Source: Gammaproteobacteria bacterium (GTDB lineage Bacteria > Pseudomonadota > Gammaproteobacteria > Ga0077536). Taken from it: DNA of 40,852 bases. Each line of letters begins with the position of its first letter. Positions within the stretch are counted from its first letter, which is position 1. Where the stretch lies: positions 1 to 40,852 of the forward strand of contig JAUIFX010000017.1 in the NCBI GenBank assembly GCA_030429865.1, given 5' to 3'. Under the pieces are notes generated by a model that saw only the letters and a list, made by a program, of their open reading frames with translations, did not search any database and had not been told where the DNA came from. The translations under genes were made by a program, and so were the position numbers. Shown piece by piece: positions 16,822 to 37,736 of the stretch.

Positions 16822-17879
16822 CAGCGATCAAACGCCTGGCCGGCATGGTCCTGGCGCTCGCCCTGCTGGCCGTGATGATGGCCTGGCTCGCGGGCTGGTT
16901 CTCCGACACCATTGAGCCCGGCAGCTACGCGCCGCCGCCGGCGGCAGCGGCAGGTCACAGCGTGCCGGTGGCACTGGTCGAACGCGAGCGATTCGAGTAC
17001 GCCACCGGCACCGTGCGCGCGCGCAACGAGACCATCGTCTCGGCGCGCATGATGGCGAGCATCCGCGCCATCCACGTGCGCGCCGGTGACCGCGTGCGCA
17101 GCGGGCAGCTGCTCGTCGAGCTCGACGCGCGCGAGCAGGGCGCGCGCGTCGAACAGGCCGGGCAGGCGGTGGCGAGCGCACAGGCGCGCCTCGCCGAAGC
17201 GCGCTCGCATCATGCGCGCACCGAGCGCCTCGCGGCGCAGCGGGCCGCCTCGACGGCGGAACTCGAGCGTGCGCTGGCTGCCCTGCGCGCGGCCGAGGCG
17301 GAGCTCGAGCGCGCGCGCGAAGCGCTGGCCGAGGTGCGCTCGGCAGCGAGCCATGCCGAGATCGCCGCGACGCTGGACGGCCGCGTGGTCGAGCGCTACG
17401 CCGAGCCCGGTGACACCGCGGTACCGGGGACGCCGCTGCTCAAGCTCTACGATCCGTCGGCTCTGAGGCTCGAGGCCGACGTGCGCGAATCGCTCGCGGC
17501 GAGCCTTGCCGTCGGCGACAGCCTCGACGTCCACATCGATGCCACCGGCGAGCAACGCCGAGCGGCGATCGAGGAGATCGTGCCCTCGGCCGATCCGGGC
17601 TCGCGCAGTTTCGTCGTCAAGTTGACGCTTGGCGAGGCGCGCGGGCTGTATCCCGGCATGTACGGGCGCGTCGCGATTCCGACCGGGCAGGTCCGTGAGC
17701 TGCGCATTCCGGCCGCGGCCGTGATGCGCGTCGGTCAGCTCGAGTACGTCAGCGTGCGCACCGCGCATGCGACCGAGCGCCGTTTCGTGCGCAGCGGCCG
17801 CAGTGCGGCCGATGGCACGGTCGAGGTGCTCAGCGGCCTCGATGCGGGCGAGCAGGTCGTCGTGCCGGATGTGCCTTGA
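16818..17879 (+). CDS. RND periplasmic adaptor (membrane fusion protein, HlyD/AcrA-like)
   Basis: 353 residues: an N-terminal signal/anchor helix (residues 8-27, MVLALALLAVMMAWLAGWF), a lipoyl half-motif, a long coiled-coil hairpin (about residues 95-180, rich in Ala, Glu and Arg), then beta-barrel and membrane-proximal domains ending in DAGEQVVVPDVP. There is no lipobox Cys, so it is likely inner-membrane anchored rather than a lipoprotein. The start is fixed by the ATGA overlap with the permease. It would link the RND pump to an outer-membrane channel encoded elsewhere. Confidence 0.92.
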   Translation: MTAIKRLAGMVLALALLAVMMAWLAGWFSDTIEPGSYAPPPAAAAGHSVPVALVERERFEYATGTVRARNETIVSARMMASIRAIHVRAGDRVRSGQLLVELDAREQGARVEQAGQAVASAQARLAEARSHHARTERLAAQRAASTAELERALAALRAAEAELERAREALAEVRSAASHAEIAATLDGRVVERYAEPGDTAVPGTPLLKLYDPSALRLEADVRESLAASLAVGDSLDVHIDATGEQRRAAIEEIVPSADPGSRSFVVKLTLGEARGLYPGMYGRVAIPTGQVRELRIPAAAVMRVGQLEYVSVRTAHATERRFVRSGRSAADGTVEVLSGLDAGEQVVVPDVP

Positions 17880-24834: not shown

Positions 24835-24866
24835 GCCCGGCCCGCTGCTTGTGCGGCGGGCCGGGC
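24835..24866 (+). terminator. Strong GC hairpin between small exported protein and persulfide dioxygenase
   Basis: Perfect 11-bp arms GCCCGGCCCGC (24835-24845) and GCGGGCCGGGC (24856-24866) with a 10-nt loop, 18 bp after the small gene's stop. No T tract follows, so it may attenuate or stabilise the 3' end rather than terminate fully. Confidence 0.55.
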
Positions 24867-29293: not shown

Positions 29294-30508
29294 TCAGGGC
29301 ACGATGACGTGGTCGGGCGCGGCGAGCGCGAAAGCCGCCTCGCGATCGGCGGGCGGTGGGTAGATCCATTCGGTGTTGATCGAGCGCTTGAGCGCCTTGG
29401 CCTCGGCGCCCGACATCACCACGGCGCGCTCCCAGCCCTCGGTGTAGACCGCACCCCACGGTCCGAGGTCGAGACAGGTCACGTATTTCGGCTGGCTGTA
29501 GGGATGCAGCGGCAGGTCGATGAGATCCGCCGCCGCGTTGTAGCCGGCGACCCGGCCCAGGCTCAGCGCGTGCTGGCAGGACATCAACGCGACGTGGCCC
29601 GTGTCGTCGGCCGCGGCGTGTGCGGTGTCGCCGCTGACGAAGATGTCCGCACAGGCCGGGGCACGCAGAAAGCGATCCGCATGCACGCGTCCTTGGGCGT
29701 CGTGTTCGCCCGGGACCTGGGCCGCCAGGCTGCTGGCGCGTGCGCCCGCGGTCCACACCACGGTGTTGGCTGCGAAGTGCCTGCCGTCGGCGGTGGTGAC
29801 GCCATCGGCATCGATCGCGGCGACCGCCGTGCCGGTGACGATGTCGACGCCGCAGGCGGCGAGTGCCTGCTCGATGGTCGGCCGCGGTCCGGGCCCGAGA
29901 TCGGGGCCGATCGATGCCGACTGCTCGATGACGACCACGCGCGGGTTCTCCGCGCCGAGGATCGTCCGCAGCCGGGCCGGCAGCTCGGCCGCGGTTTCGA
30001 TGCCCGTGAAGCCGCCACCGGCGACGATCACGGTATCGCGCGCGGCGTTCGCCGGCCGGCGCGCCAGTGCGTGCAGGTGGGCGTCGAGCTTGCGCGCGCC
30101 GGCAAGCTGGTCGACGTCGAAGGCGTGCTCGGCCAGGCCCGGCACCGGCGGCCGGTTGAGTTCGCTGCCGGTGGCGAGGACGAGCCTGTCGTAGCGCCGC
30201 GCCGTGCGGCGGCCATCGGCGGTGACGAGCGTGAGTTCGTGACGTGCCGTATCGAGGCTCTCGACCCGGCCGGGCTCGTGCGCGACACCGACCGCGGCGA
30301 GCAGCGGCGCGATGTCGGGCGCCATCTCGTCGAACGCGGTTTCATACAGGCGCGGCCGGATGTGCAGCTGCGGAGCGGGCGAAATCATGGTGATGGCGAC
30401 GTCGGCCGCGCGGCCGGCGTGCGCGAGCGCGCGCGCCGCGGCGAGGGCGGCCCAGGTGCCGGCGAAACCGGATCCGGCAATGACGAGTTGGCGGGCATCG
30501 GCGGTCAT
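29294..30508 (-). CDS. FAD-dependent NAD(P)H oxidoreductase, NDH-2-like
   Basis: 404 residues, two dinucleotide-binding folds: FAD site at LVIAGSGFAGTWAAL (residues 8-22) and NAD(P)H site at TVIVAGGGFTGIETAAEL (about residue 160). LATGSE and DIFVSGDTAHA are the usual later motifs. Type II NADH dehydrogenases and sulfide:quinone reductase relatives share this layout. No redox-active Cys pair of the sulfide:quinone type was seen, so NADH:quinone-like function is favoured. It is 51 bp downstream of the Rrf2 regulator, on the same strand, so the two are probably one operon. ATG at 30508. Confidence 0.85.
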   Translation of the reverse strand: MTADARQLVIAGSGFAGTWAALAAARALAHAGRAADVAITMISPAPQLHIRPRLYETAFDEMAPDIAPLLAAVGVAHEPGRVESLDTARHELTLVTADGRRTARRYDRLVLATGSELNRPPVPGLAEHAFDVDQLAGARKLDAHLHALARRPANAARDTVIVAGGGFTGIETAAELPARLRTILGAENPRVVVIEQSASIGPDLGPGPRPTIEQALAACGVDIVTGTAVAAIDADGVTTADGRHFAANTVVWTAGARASSLAAQVPGEHDAQGRVHADRFLRAPACADIFVSGDTAHAAADDTGHVALMSCQHALSLGRVAGYNAAADLIDLPLHPYSQPKYVTCLDLGPWGAVYTEGWERAVVMSGAEAKALKRSINTEWIYPPPADREAAFALAAPDHVIVP

Positions 30509-30559
30509 GTCTTCGATCCTCGGGTGGGAGAGGGATGGCGGGGACGGTGCCCGGGTGGT

Positions 30560-31078
30560 TCAGCGCGCCGGTCCGCGGCGCGACGACGCGCGTTCGCCGA
30601 GCCAGCGCTCGACCGATGCGCCGAAGTCGGCCGGCGCCTTGCGCTCCAGTGCCCGGGCCAGGTCGGCGAGGGTCTCCGCCGCCAGCGCGTCACGCATGGC
30701 GCGCTCGGCGCGCTGCATGGTGGCGTGGATCGCGCACGTGCCGCGGCTCGCCCAGCGTGGTGGCGGATCGTCGAACAGGGCGCAGCGCGTGCGGATCTCC
30801 TGGCACTCGAACAGCGGCTTGTCGCCCTCGATGGCGTCGACGATGTCGAGCACCGTGATCGCCGCAGCCGGCCGGGCCAGGCGGTAGCCGCCACGCAGAC
30901 CGGGAACGGCGTCGACGATGCCGGCCTTCTCGAGGCGCGGGAAGATCTTGGCGAGGAAGCTCGGCGAGATCCCTTGCAGCTCGGCCAGGTCGCGGCTGCT
31001 CGGCTGCTGCTCGCCGGCGCCGACCAGCCAGAGCAGGCAATGAATGCCGTATTCGACGCGGCTCGTGAGGTGTGCCAT
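30560..31078 (-). CDS. Rrf2-family regulator, probable Fe-S cluster sensor
   Basis: 172 residues: winged helix (SSRDLAELQGISPSFLAKIFPRLEKAGIV, then GLRGGYRLARP) and three cysteines C92, C99 and C115 in the region that holds the Fe-S cluster in IscR, NsrR and RsrR. E9 and H13 form the E-x3-H pattern used with Cys as cluster ligands in RsrR. The ATG at 31078 follows an 11-3-11 bp palindrome with no space for a ribosome site, so the message is probably leaderless. It likely represses itself and the downstream FAD oxidoreductase in response to redox state. It is not IscR: no isc genes follow. Confidence 0.9.
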   Translation of the reverse strand: MAHLTSRVEYGIHCLLWLVGAGEQQPSSRDLAELQGISPSFLAKIFPRLEKAGIVDAVPGLRGGYRLARPAAAITVLDIVDAIEGDKPLFECQEIRTRCALFDDPPPRWASRGTCAIHATMQRAERAMRDALAAETLADLARALERKAPADFGASVERWLGERASSRRGPAR

Positions 31079-31114
31079 AACGCGGACTATATTAGTCCGC
31101 GTTTAATCCGGCAA
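31079..31114 (-). promoter_or_regulatory. Promoter and 11-3-11 palindromic operator of the rrf2 gene
   Basis: Perfect 11-bp arms (31079-31089 and 31093-31103) surround TAT. Read leftwards, -35 TTGCCG (31114-31109), 17-bp spacer and -10 TATAGT (31091-31086) place the transcript start at or next to the A of the ATG at 31078. The operator covers the -10 and spacer. The predicted mRNA therefore has essentially no leader. Confidence 0.8.
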
Positions 31115-31173
31115 GCGACCGACCATGCGCGGCCTCGCCTCGCTCAGTCACGCGACCGTGCGCAGGGCGGCGG

Positions 31174-32949
31174 CTAGTGCATGTGCGGCGTGCTCACCCC
31201 GGCGGGTACGCGGATGTCCTCGACCAGCGCGACGACGCTCGCCGGCGGCGCGGCGGTGAAGTGCGAGACGGTCAGGGCGACGGCAAAGTTGAGCGCCGCG
31301 CCGAGCGCACCGATGCCTTCCGGCGAGATGCCGAACCACCAGGCATCGGGGCCGTTCATGTGCGGCGCGTAGAACTTGAACCAGGCGATGTAGCCGAACG
31401 TGAAGCCGAGCCCGGCGATCATGCCGGCGACGGCGCCCTCGCGGTTCATGCGCAGCGAGAAGATGCCGAGCAGGATGGCGGGGAACAGCGAGGCCGCGGC
31501 GAGGCCGAAAGCGAACGCGACGACCTGCGCGACGAAGCCGGGCGGATTGACGCCGAGATAGCCCGCGATGGCGATGGCGCTGGCTGCCGCGATGCGCGCG
31601 GCGAGCAGCTCCTGGCGATCGGAGAGGCCGCGCGCGAAGGTCTTCTTGAGCAGGTCGTGCGAGACCGAAGCCGAGATCACCAGCAGCAGGCCGGCCGCCG
31701 TCGACAGCGCCGCGGCCAGGCTGCCGGCGGCGACGAGCGCGATCACCCACGGCGGCAGCATCGCGATCTCGGGGTTGGCGAGGACCATGATGTCGCGATC
31801 GACGTAGACCTCGTTGGCGCTCTCGCGCGCCGCGTTGAGCAGCATGCGCTGGCCGTCGACGCCGCGCGCCTCGCCGGCGAACTCCGGTTTGCCTTCGAAC
31901 GGCATGCCCGGGCCATACTGGATGCGCCCGTCGCCGTTCTTGTCGCGCCAGCCGATCAGGCCGACGTCCTCCCAGTTGTGGAACCAGTCGGCCACTTCGC
32001 CGTAAGCCCGGTCGTGCACGGTATCGATGAAGTTCAGTCGCGCGAACGCACCGACCGCCGGGGCGGTGGTATAGAGCAGGGCGATGAACAACAGCGCCCA
32101 GCCGGCCGAGCGGCGCGCGTCGGAGACCTTCGGCACGGTGAAGAAGCGCACGATGACGTGCGGCAACCCGGCCGTCCCCAGCATCAGCGCCATGGTGATG
32201 GCGAACACGTCGATGGTCGACTTGCCGCCCTGCGTATAGGGTGCGAAGCCGAGGTCGACCAGCGTACGGTCGAGCTTCTCGAGCACGGCGAGACCCGAGC
32301 CGTCGGCGACGGTGGCGCCGAGGCCGAGCTGCGGCACCGGCACGCCCGTGATCAGCAGCGAGATGAAGATGGCCGGCACGAGGTAGGCGAAGATCAGCAC
32401 GCAGTACTGCGCGACCTGGGTATAGGTGATGCCTTTCATGCCGCCGAGCACGGCGTAGAAGAACACCACCAGCATGCCGATCGCGACGCCCCAGTCGATG
32501 GGCACGCCGAGGAAGTGCGAGAAGACGATGCCGACGCCGCGCATCTGGCCGGCGACGTAGGTGAACGAAATCACGATCAGGCTGACGACCGCGACGACCC
32601 GCGCGGTGTTCGAGTAATAACGCGTACCGATGAAATCGGGCACGGTGAACTCGCCGAACTTGCGCAGGTAGGGCGCGAGCAGCATCGCCAGCAGCACGTA
32701 GCCGCCGGTCCAGCCCATCAGGTAGACCGCGCCGTCGTAGCCGAGGAACGCGATGATGCCGGCCATCGAGATGAACGACGCCGCGCTCATCCAGTCGGCC
32801 GCCGTCGCCATGCCGTTGGCGACGGGATGCACGCCGCCGCCGGCCACGTAGAAGTCGCCCGTGGAACCGGCACGCGACCACACCGCGATGCCGATGTAGA
32901 GCGCGAAGCTCACCGCGACGAAGAGATAGGTCAGCGTCTGCGCGTCCAT
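31174..32949 (-). CDS. Sodium/solute symporter, large subunit (SSS family, ActP-like, VC_2705 type)
   Basis: 591 residues with about 13 membrane helices and the SSS signature region GGMKGITYTQVAQYCVLIFAYLVP. MDAQTLTYLFVAVSFALYIGIAVWSRA begins the first helix. A soluble loop of about 70 residues after helix 8 holds D336-K-N338-G-D340-G-R-I343, a Ca2+-binding-loop-like DxNxDGxI. Such inserts occur in the VC_2705 subfamily, which is always partnered with a DUF4212 small subunit, as here. Likely substrates are acetate or other short organic acids, moved with Na+. Its ATG shares one base with the small-subunit stop (TGATG), so translation is coupled. Confidence 0.92.
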   Translation of the reverse strand: MDAQTLTYLFVAVSFALYIGIAVWSRAGSTGDFYVAGGGVHPVANGMATAADWMSAASFISMAGIIAFLGYDGAVYLMGWTGGYVLLAMLLAPYLRKFGEFTVPDFIGTRYYSNTARVVAVVSLIVISFTYVAGQMRGVGIVFSHFLGVPIDWGVAIGMLVVFFYAVLGGMKGITYTQVAQYCVLIFAYLVPAIFISLLITGVPVPQLGLGATVADGSGLAVLEKLDRTLVDLGFAPYTQGGKSTIDVFAITMALMLGTAGLPHVIVRFFTVPKVSDARRSAGWALLFIALLYTTAPAVGAFARLNFIDTVHDRAYGEVADWFHNWEDVGLIGWRDKNGDGRIQYGPGMPFEGKPEFAGEARGVDGQRMLLNAARESANEVYVDRDIMVLANPEIAMLPPWVIALVAAGSLAAALSTAAGLLLVISASVSHDLLKKTFARGLSDRQELLAARIAAASAIAIAGYLGVNPPGFVAQVVAFAFGLAAASLFPAILLGIFSLRMNREGAVAGMIAGLGFTFGYIAWFKFYAPHMNGPDAWWFGISPEGIGALGAALNFAVALTVSHFTAAPPASVVALVEDIRVPAGVSTPHMH

Positions 32950-36542: not shown

Positions 36543-37736
36543 TCAAGTCGGTGCGAGCCCGAGCAGGTGGGCCAGGTCCTTGAAGAAGATGCGCAGGTGC
36601 GAGCCCGGCCGGGCTCGCACCAGGCGCTTGTTCATGTAGGCCTCCCACGTCAGGCGTTGCACGTCCGGGTCGGCGCACATGCGTACGAAGCGTTCGCGCC
36701 GCGCGTCGCTGCCGTACCAGAAGCGCTGCATGACGCCGAGAATGAAGAACACCCGACCATGCTCGCGCAGGAAGCGCCGCCGCACCTGGGCCAATTCGCG
36801 GCCGTCGCCGCTCGAGACGCAGGCGTCAGCCGCGCGAGCGGCGAGTGCGCCGGAGGCCATGGCATAGTAGATTCCTTCACCCGATGCCGGCGCGACGACG
36901 CCGGCTGCATCACCGATGACGACGGTGTCGCGTCCGTTGTCCCAGCATCGCCGCGGCCGCAGGGGTATCGGTGCGCCCTCGCGACGGATCAGCGGCGCTG
37001 CGGCGAGACCGCCGCCGCAGCGCAGATCGTCGACCGCTTTACGCAGGGAGAAACCGCGTACCGCGCTGCCAACGCCGACACTGGTCTGCGCTCCGTGGGG
37101 AAAGATCCAACCGTAGAAATCCGGTGACAGCCTGCCCTGGTAGAAGACATCACAGCGTGTGCCGTCGAAACCCGCTTCCGGCGTTGCGACGATCTCGTGG
37201 AACGCCGATACGAACGGCGGTGGCGGTACGTCCGGCAACGCTTGCCGGGCGACCGCGGAGTTGGCACCGTCGGCGCCGATGACAACGCGCGCGCGGGCGG
37301 ATGCACGATATCCCGTGCCATCGTGCGCGTCGTAGCGGACGATGGCGAGGCCGTCACGATCGCGGTCGAGTGCGCCGAATATGCCGCGCACACGGTGCGC
37401 GCCGGCAGCGGCTGCGCGCTCACGTAGCCATTCGTCGAACTCGTCGCGGTCGACCATGGCAACGTAGCCGCCGTCGATCGGCATGTCCACGGCACGGGCG
37501 GACGGCGCGACGATACGTGCCGAGGTGATGCGCGCCTTGATCAGCTTGTCGGGAATGGCGAAGTCGCGTACCAGGCGTGGCGGCACGGCGCCGCCGCACG
37601 GCTTGATGCGTCCCGCGCGGTCGAGGAGCAGCACGCGGCGCCCGCGTTGGGCGAGGTCGTGCGCGGCGGTAGCGCCAGCCGGGCCGCCGCCGACCACGAT
37701 GACGTCGTAGGTTGCCGGATCATGTGTGACGTTCAT
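36543..37736 (-). CDS. bchP: Geranylgeranyl reductase of bacteriochlorophyll synthesis (BchP)
   Basis: 397 residues. An N-terminal FAD/NADPH-binding site (YDVIVVGGGPAGATAAHDLAQRG, about residues 9-31) is followed by family motifs KPCGGAVPPRL, DGANSAVAR, GWIFPHG and IGDAAGVVAPASGEGIYYAM. BchP reduces the geranylgeranyl group to phytyl on bacteriochlorophyll or its diphosphate precursor. The ATG overlaps the stop of the upstream transporter (ATGA, 37736-37733), so it is the third gene of the ppsR-linked bchG operon. The C-terminus RIFFKDLAHLLGL is typical. Confidence 0.95.
   Translation of the reverse strand: MNVTHDPATYDVIVVGGGPAGATAAHDLAQRGRRVLLLDRAGRIKPCGGAVPPRLVRDFAIPDKLIKARITSARIVAPSARAVDMPIDGGYVAMVDRDEFDEWLRERAAAAGAHRVRGIFGALDRDRDGLAIVRYDAHDGTGYRASARARVVIGADGANSAVARQALPDVPPPPFVSAFHEIVATPEAGFDGTRCDVFYQGRLSPDFYGWIFPHGAQTSVGVGSAVRGFSLRKAVDDLRCGGGLAAAPLIRREGAPIPLRPRRCWDNGRDTVVIGDAAGVVAPASGEGIYYAMASGALAARAADACVSSGDGRELAQVRRRFLREHGRVFFILGVMQRFWYGSDARRERFVRMCADPDVQRLTWEAYMNKRLVRARPGSHLRIFFKDLAHLLGLAPT

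Follow-up and report, generated by a model that had tools for sequence, protein, structure and literature searches.

Gene order and promoter region of the locus

The window, i.e., the whole stretch of 40,852 nucleotides that was analyzed, carries on its minus strand a gene for an Rrf2-family regulator followed by a gene for an NDH-2-like FAD oxidoreductase (Table 1). The regulator belongs to the Rrf2 superfamily, with scores of 120.2 bits against PF02082 (Pfam cutoff 30) and 103.5 bits against TIGR00738 (NCBIfam cutoff 73.3). A different start codon was rejected because the ATG at 31078 is the first start in the open frame; Glu9 and His13 of the protein sit shortly after it. Assignments as IscR or NsrR were also rejected. 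Both share superfamily and fold with the window protein, but it scores far under their NCBIfam equivalog cutoffs (56.7 bits versus 207.55 for IscR, 46.8 versus 182 for NsrR), and their ligand sets differ. The other Rrf2 genes of the host genome, named by eye, are one IscR-like gene preceded by AGGAG and one NsrR-like gene, and no abutting operator was found at either.

The earlier note on this DNA had named the downstream gene as encoding an FAD oxidoreductase, and its domain match and co-directional position support this. The nearest solved structures include 4nwz (FAD-dependent pyridine nucleotide-disulfide oxidoreductase, E 8.5e-27), which we take to be an NDH-2, and the NADH dehydrogenase-like protein YjlD. 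On the other side of the regulator gene, a co-directional gene for a VC_2705-family sodium:solute symporter (31174-32949, minus strand) ends 95 nt upstream of the Rrf2 start codon, and a search for terminator-like sites gave none. The same symporter neighbor, 99.7% identical, is present at locus L004. Read-through from this gene could add a leadered Rrf2 transcript.

Table 1. Features of the Rrf2 locus in window coordinates
Feature	Position	Strand	Basis or remark
FAD oxidoreductase gene, NDH-2-like	29294..30508	minus	404 aa, 51 nt past the Rrf2 stop; PF07992 E 3.5e-38
Shine-Dalgarno-like GAGGA of the FAD oxidoreductase gene	30517..30521	minus	sequence; scored as AGGA
Rrf2-family regulator gene	30560..31078	minus	172 aa, ATG at 31078; PF02082 E 8.8e-35
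Predicted transcription start, on the A of the ATG or the preceding base	31078..31079	minus	from promoter position and leader-bearing relatives
Operator, perfect 11-3-11 palindrome flush with the ATG	31079..31103	.	matching operator in 76/79 loci
-10 hexamer TATAGT, within the operator	31086..31091	minus	promoter scan; conserved
-35 hexamer TTGCCG	31109..31114	minus	promoter scan; TTG kept at the same distance from the operator

Read on the minus strand (31103-31079), the palindrome is AACGCGGACTA-ATA-TAGTCCGCGTT, a 25-bp element in which 11 of 11 arm positions match across a spacer of 3. It had been described as reaching the base before the ATG and as overlying a -10 that lies 7 nt from the start codon, and both statements hold: the minus-strand order is TTGCCG (31114-31109), 17 nt, TATAGT (31091-31086), CCGCGTT and ATG (31078), with TATAGT inside the palindrome. 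TTGCCG-17-TATAGT is the only sigma-70-like promoter-like site that a scan of positions 30400-31400 returned, where 0.1 would be expected. The usual distance between a -10 and its start would place transcription initiation on the A of the ATG or on the base preceding it. Because the -10 ends 7 nt upstream of the ATG, the transcript is predicted to begin at, or one base before, the start codon.

Conservation of the operator and of its distance to the ATG

Related loci were collected by a scan of genome contigs, which gave 78 loci and, with the window, 79, mostly from alpha-, beta- and gammaproteobacteria. A matching operator lies within 170 nt upstream of the Rrf2 gene in 76 of them and is missing in three. 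Operators were called with a position weight matrix (PWM) at a score cutoff of 8; its training set was made up of 37 of these sites, which all directly abut the ATG and for which the matrix is partly circular, and contained neither leader-bearing sites nor second sites. In mononucleotide-shuffled sequence, 0 of 411,550 positions reached a score of 12. The closest relative of the window, L004 of the same genus, has an identical operator, while the remaining upstream spacer has diverged.

The distance between operator and ATG differs among the loci. It is 0 bases in 39, 1 in five, 2 in one and 3 in one, so that 46/79 loci are flush. In another 30 the nearest scored site lies 21-87 nt from the ATG, mostly 24-33 nt; these are loci from Serratia, Proteus, Providencia, Azospirillum, Microvirga, a few metagenome bins and Pseudonocardia, plus L052, L060 and L081, in which a degenerate stretch beside the ATG was scored as no site. 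A promoter profile covering 39 of the 46 flush loci and 25 of the other 30 placed the second T of the -35 TTG at the same position relative to the operator in all of them (39/39 flush, 25/25 leader-bearing), and the final T of the -10 is likewise fixed (39/39 and 25/25). Since the geometry of -35, -10 and operator is unchanged where the ATG has moved away, the promoter is tied to the operator and not to the ATG; where the ATG is flush, this operator-linked promoter therefore leaves no room for a leader. Thus, the leaderless start that the earlier note had assigned to the Rrf2 gene, a prediction from sequence, is upheld by comparison with relatives, and the overlap of operator and -10 is kept across loci. 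The predicted leaderlessness does not extend to all loci: in Serratia, Azospirillum and others, the operator-promoter is retained together with a leader. On a tree of 72 labeled rows, at least six changes between the flush and the leader-bearing state were counted (L080 and L081 were left out of the tree and L052, L060 and L079 out of the count, in which L072 and L074, both lacking the operator, were unlabeled).

Further sites were seen around this core set. A second operator stands 36-43 bp upstream of the first in 42/76 loci (L005, L017, L034, L045 and others), with the -35 between the two; the window has one operator only. More distant relatives within the window's own family have their site 4-7 nt from the start (L127-L129, L135-L137) or 2 nt from it (L134). 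Imperfect 11-3-11 repeats with 7-10 of the 11 pairs intact directly abut an in-frame ATG or GTG in 8/30 actinobacterial loci, the start codons in this check being our choice. L072 and L074 represent a second Bradyrhizobium copy (56% identical) without an operator at its own start; at these loci operators occur elsewhere, one of them before a divergent FAD oxidoreductase gene.

Two other explanations of the palindrome have to be weighed. Distinct perfect inverted repeats with arms of at least 11 and a gap of at most 10 number five in the window, where base composition alone would predict ~0.6; such a repeat is not rare here and is unconvincing by itself. What rules out a chance palindrome devoid of function is the conservation of the operator across loci rather than the palindrome as such, and with the operator kept before the gene in 76/79 loci and a single exact match in the host genome, we rejected a chance origin as very improbable. 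Alternatively, the Rrf2 gene might be transcribed mainly from an upstream promoter, e.g., by read-through from the symporter gene, with the palindrome acting as an RNA hairpin against the AUG to control translation. The perfection of the palindrome, its position flush with the AUG and the co-directional upstream gene with no detected terminator would all suit such a hairpin. However, among 41 distinct flush sites, 67/451 arm pairs are unpairable and 29 are G-U while the half-sites are still conserved, the -35 and -10 are kept at a fixed distance, and the operator persists at loci that have it 24-33 nt away from the start codon. A hairpin is thus disfavored, and we regard it as improbable. The remaining perfect repeats of the window were noted in their own right: a 13-0-13 repeat at 36596-36621, whose left arm recurs in part ~45 bp off, near 36550, and repeats with arms of 11-12 bases at 17122-17152, 24835-24866 and 36995-37023.

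The FAD oxidoreductase gene is adjacent and co-directional in 46/79 loci; in the other 33 it is not, some of these loci being cut by contig ends. A Shine-Dalgarno match of at least 4 nt precedes the adjacent FAD gene in 40/46 loci and the Rrf2 gene in 8/46, compared with 557/3900 random windows (46 of 47 loci were counted, L074 being left out with its FAD gene 1662 nt away). The matches at the Rrf2 gene are split between 4/26 flush loci and 4/20 loci with a leader.

Beyond its exact match at the locus, the operator shows little spread in the host genome: a loosened pattern gave 324 matches versus 418 in the reversed control, per strand. We rejected a regulon as extensive as that of Streptomyces RsrR, for which 630 ChIP-exo sites are described (PMC5015018), as the host genome gives no sign of one. 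The genomes of 11 relatives have 18 sites, 14 of them at the Rrf2 locus and four elsewhere, versus three in the control; the 14 include an Azospirillum pair (genome G005) at a nearby NmrA-like gene, the Providencia genome has zero sites at the stringency used, and the lone match in the Pseudonocardia genome is away from its Rrf2 locus. The regulator therefore looks to act locally, unlike Streptomyces RsrR. Some Azospirillum loci have an NmrA-like gene ~1.4 kb away with its own operator pair. At L019, L028, L035, L047, L048 and L053, all Azospirillum, the pair lies ~1.5 kb upstream of the Rrf2 ATG and precedes an NmrA-like NAD(P)-binding gene beside a cupin gene. RsrR of Streptomyces has a target of this kind, an NmrA-type gene being described as its clearest one (PMC5015018). 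At Sulfuritalea-type loci, an NAD(P)-binding epimerase-like protein is encoded by a gene downstream.

Cluster ligands and switch residues of the regulator

RsrR of Streptomyces venezuelae is the closest solved relative of the window protein by sequence (6hsd, E 9.8e-30), is also the top solved match by profile and occupies ranks 1-5 in a comparison of the predicted fold (Z 17.3-19.1). The window protein has the motif E9-Y10-G-I-H13 together with C92, C99 and C115. The ligands of RsrR are given as Glu8, His12, Cys90 and Cys110 (PMC9218516), and these align with Glu9, His13, Cys92 and Cys115. All four are invariant in 84/84 proteins of the proteobacterial type and in 30/30 actinobacterial proteins (L080, L081, L096, L126 and the duplicates L131-L133 were left out of all residue comparisons). 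The E-x3-H and Cys pattern of RsrR-like ligation that had been noticed in this protein is therefore present in full, and the cluster site is probably that of RsrR.

By contrast, the residues around the RsrR switch differ. Trp9 is described as the redox switch of RsrR (PMC11138216, PMC9218516). The window protein lacks this Trp: its position is Tyr in 84/84 proteobacterial-type proteins (Tyr10 in the window), as against 27 Trp and 3 Ser in the actinobacterial ones. The position of RsrR His33, a residue for which an alanine variant was crystallized according to a structure title, is Gln in 84/84 (Gln35), as against 17 His, 10 Tyr and 3 Phe; and that of Gly97 is Cys in 83/84 (Cys99), as against 29 Gly and 1 Ala. 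Judged by these residues, the switch is not that of RsrR, and the window protein is not RsrR-like there. Because Trp9, His33 and Gly97 are replaced by Tyr10, Gln35 and Cys99, the cluster type and the sensing may differ from those of RsrR, and because the switch residues are not conserved, RsrR-style redox control is not to be assumed. Cys99 might act as an additional ligand or as a reactive thiol.

The same anatomy might thus serve a sensor other than an RsrR-like [2Fe-2S] switch, one in which Cys99 joins the ligands of a different, possibly [4Fe-4S], cluster or senses quinones or electrophiles as a thiol. The distribution of Cys99 (83/84 proteobacterial-type versus 0/30 actinobacterial proteins), the presence of Tyr10 and Gln35 where RsrR has Trp9 and His33, the neighboring gene for a quinone-type enzyme and the precedent of SifR, a monothiol Rrf2 protein described as sensing quinones (PMC9218516), all speak for such a sensor. 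Against it stand the invariance of all four RsrR ligands and the low confidence with which the cluster loop is modeled, so that Cys99 is not placed by the predicted model. On balance, we consider a sensor of this kind possible but rather unlikely.

The operator also bears on the likeness to RsrR. As in RsrR, an 11-3-11 inverted repeat is present at the regulator's own promoter, but this form, which had been taken as that of RsrR, is characteristic of full-length Rrf2 sites in general according to the RsrR paper (PMC5015018). The form itself thus stands; because it is general to Rrf2 sites, it does not on its own indicate RsrR. The GGAC-N7-GTCC core, which the operator has in common with actinobacterial RsrR relatives, is a better indicator.

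A candidate leaderless operon and its relation to known systems

Altogether, we think it likely that the locus encodes a leaderless, self-repressing, RsrR-type redox regulator that controls the gene for an NDH-2-like flavoprotein in its own operon. From the architecture, its conservation, the ligand residues and the operon order, all read in the sequences, we infer how this operon may work. An RsrR-type Rrf2 dimer, probably holding an Fe-S cluster between Glu9/His13 of one subunit and Cys92/Cys115 of the other, would bind the 11-3-11 operator. With the -10 inside the operator and the predicted transcription start at its edge, the bound protein would exclude RNA polymerase. In the direction of response that we propose, a change in the state of the cluster would be the redox signal that lifts repression, and the transcript would begin with the AUG itself or with a single extra base. 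The regulator would be translated, probably poorly, from this leaderless message, and the downstream NDH-2-like oxidoreductase from a normal Shine-Dalgarno site.

Leaderless self-repressing operons (acuR, lambda cI, tetR) and RsrR itself are already known. The proposed regulator shares with RsrR (Sven6563; PDB 6HSD, 6Y42) the fold, the best sequence match, the Glu/His/Cys/Cys ligands, a link to NAD(P)H or quinone enzymes and, as described in PMC5015018, an 11-3-11 operator between regulator and start with proposed autoregulation. It differs from RsrR at the three positions of Trp9, His33 and Gly97 and in having one operator locus rather than hundreds of ChIP sites. The close relatives of RsrR among the loci collected here (L096-L111) have sites 13-57 nt from the start, whereas the site in the window is flush. 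The acuR-acuI-dddL operon of Rhodobacter sphaeroides is described as having an autorepressor first in a leaderless operon, an operator that overlaps the promoter and Shine-Dalgarno sites at the downstream genes (PMC3017554). Its transcription start was mapped to the AUG, and translation of its regulator was found to be weaker than that of the genes downstream (PMC3017554). In its sequence anatomy the window has the same arrangement, with the regulator first, an operator over the promoter, the ATG at the expected start and no Shine-Dalgarno site before it. The logic of the mechanism would then be that shown experimentally for acuR, although AcuR is a TetR-family acrylate repressor with an 8-6-8 operator and a start mapped by RACE, while the start in the window is predicted from sequence. 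Lambda cI and Tn1721 tetR, cited in PMC3017554 as leaderless repressor messages, are alike in that respect and are otherwise unrelated repressors that answer to unrelated signals. In the literature searched, most subscription papers lying outside its scope, we found no report of a leaderless Rrf2 gene and no paper on an Rrf2 clade with Tyr, Gln and Cys at the three positions; for an Rrf2 gene paired with an NDH-2-like FAD oxidoreductase, the search listings gave nothing relevant.

We tentatively suggest a broader scheme, which we hold with limited confidence. The proteobacterial sister clade of RsrR may have kept the Glu/His/Cys/Cys site and exchanged the relay Trp9-His33-Gly97 for Tyr10-Gln35-Cys99, so that it would sense by other chemistry, e.g., gated by the tyrosine or by Cys99 and responding to quinones or electrophiles or using a different cluster type. 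Its members would govern themselves through operator, -10, transcription start and ATG fused in one cassette, an arrangement perhaps selected for producing the leaderless sensor sparingly and the flavoenzyme in bulk.

The RsrR cluster, with its three kinds of ligand, has been described as unusual or unique. Proteobacterial proteins that keep these ligands but carry other residues at the switch positions form a large clade, which offers a natural test of how this cluster signals to DNA. The clade is also a natural experiment on leaderless genes, in which the same promoter-operator cassette has the ATG flush or mostly 24-33 nt away depending on the lineage, and culturable carriers exist in Serratia, Azospirillum, Sphingomonas and Bradyrhizobium.
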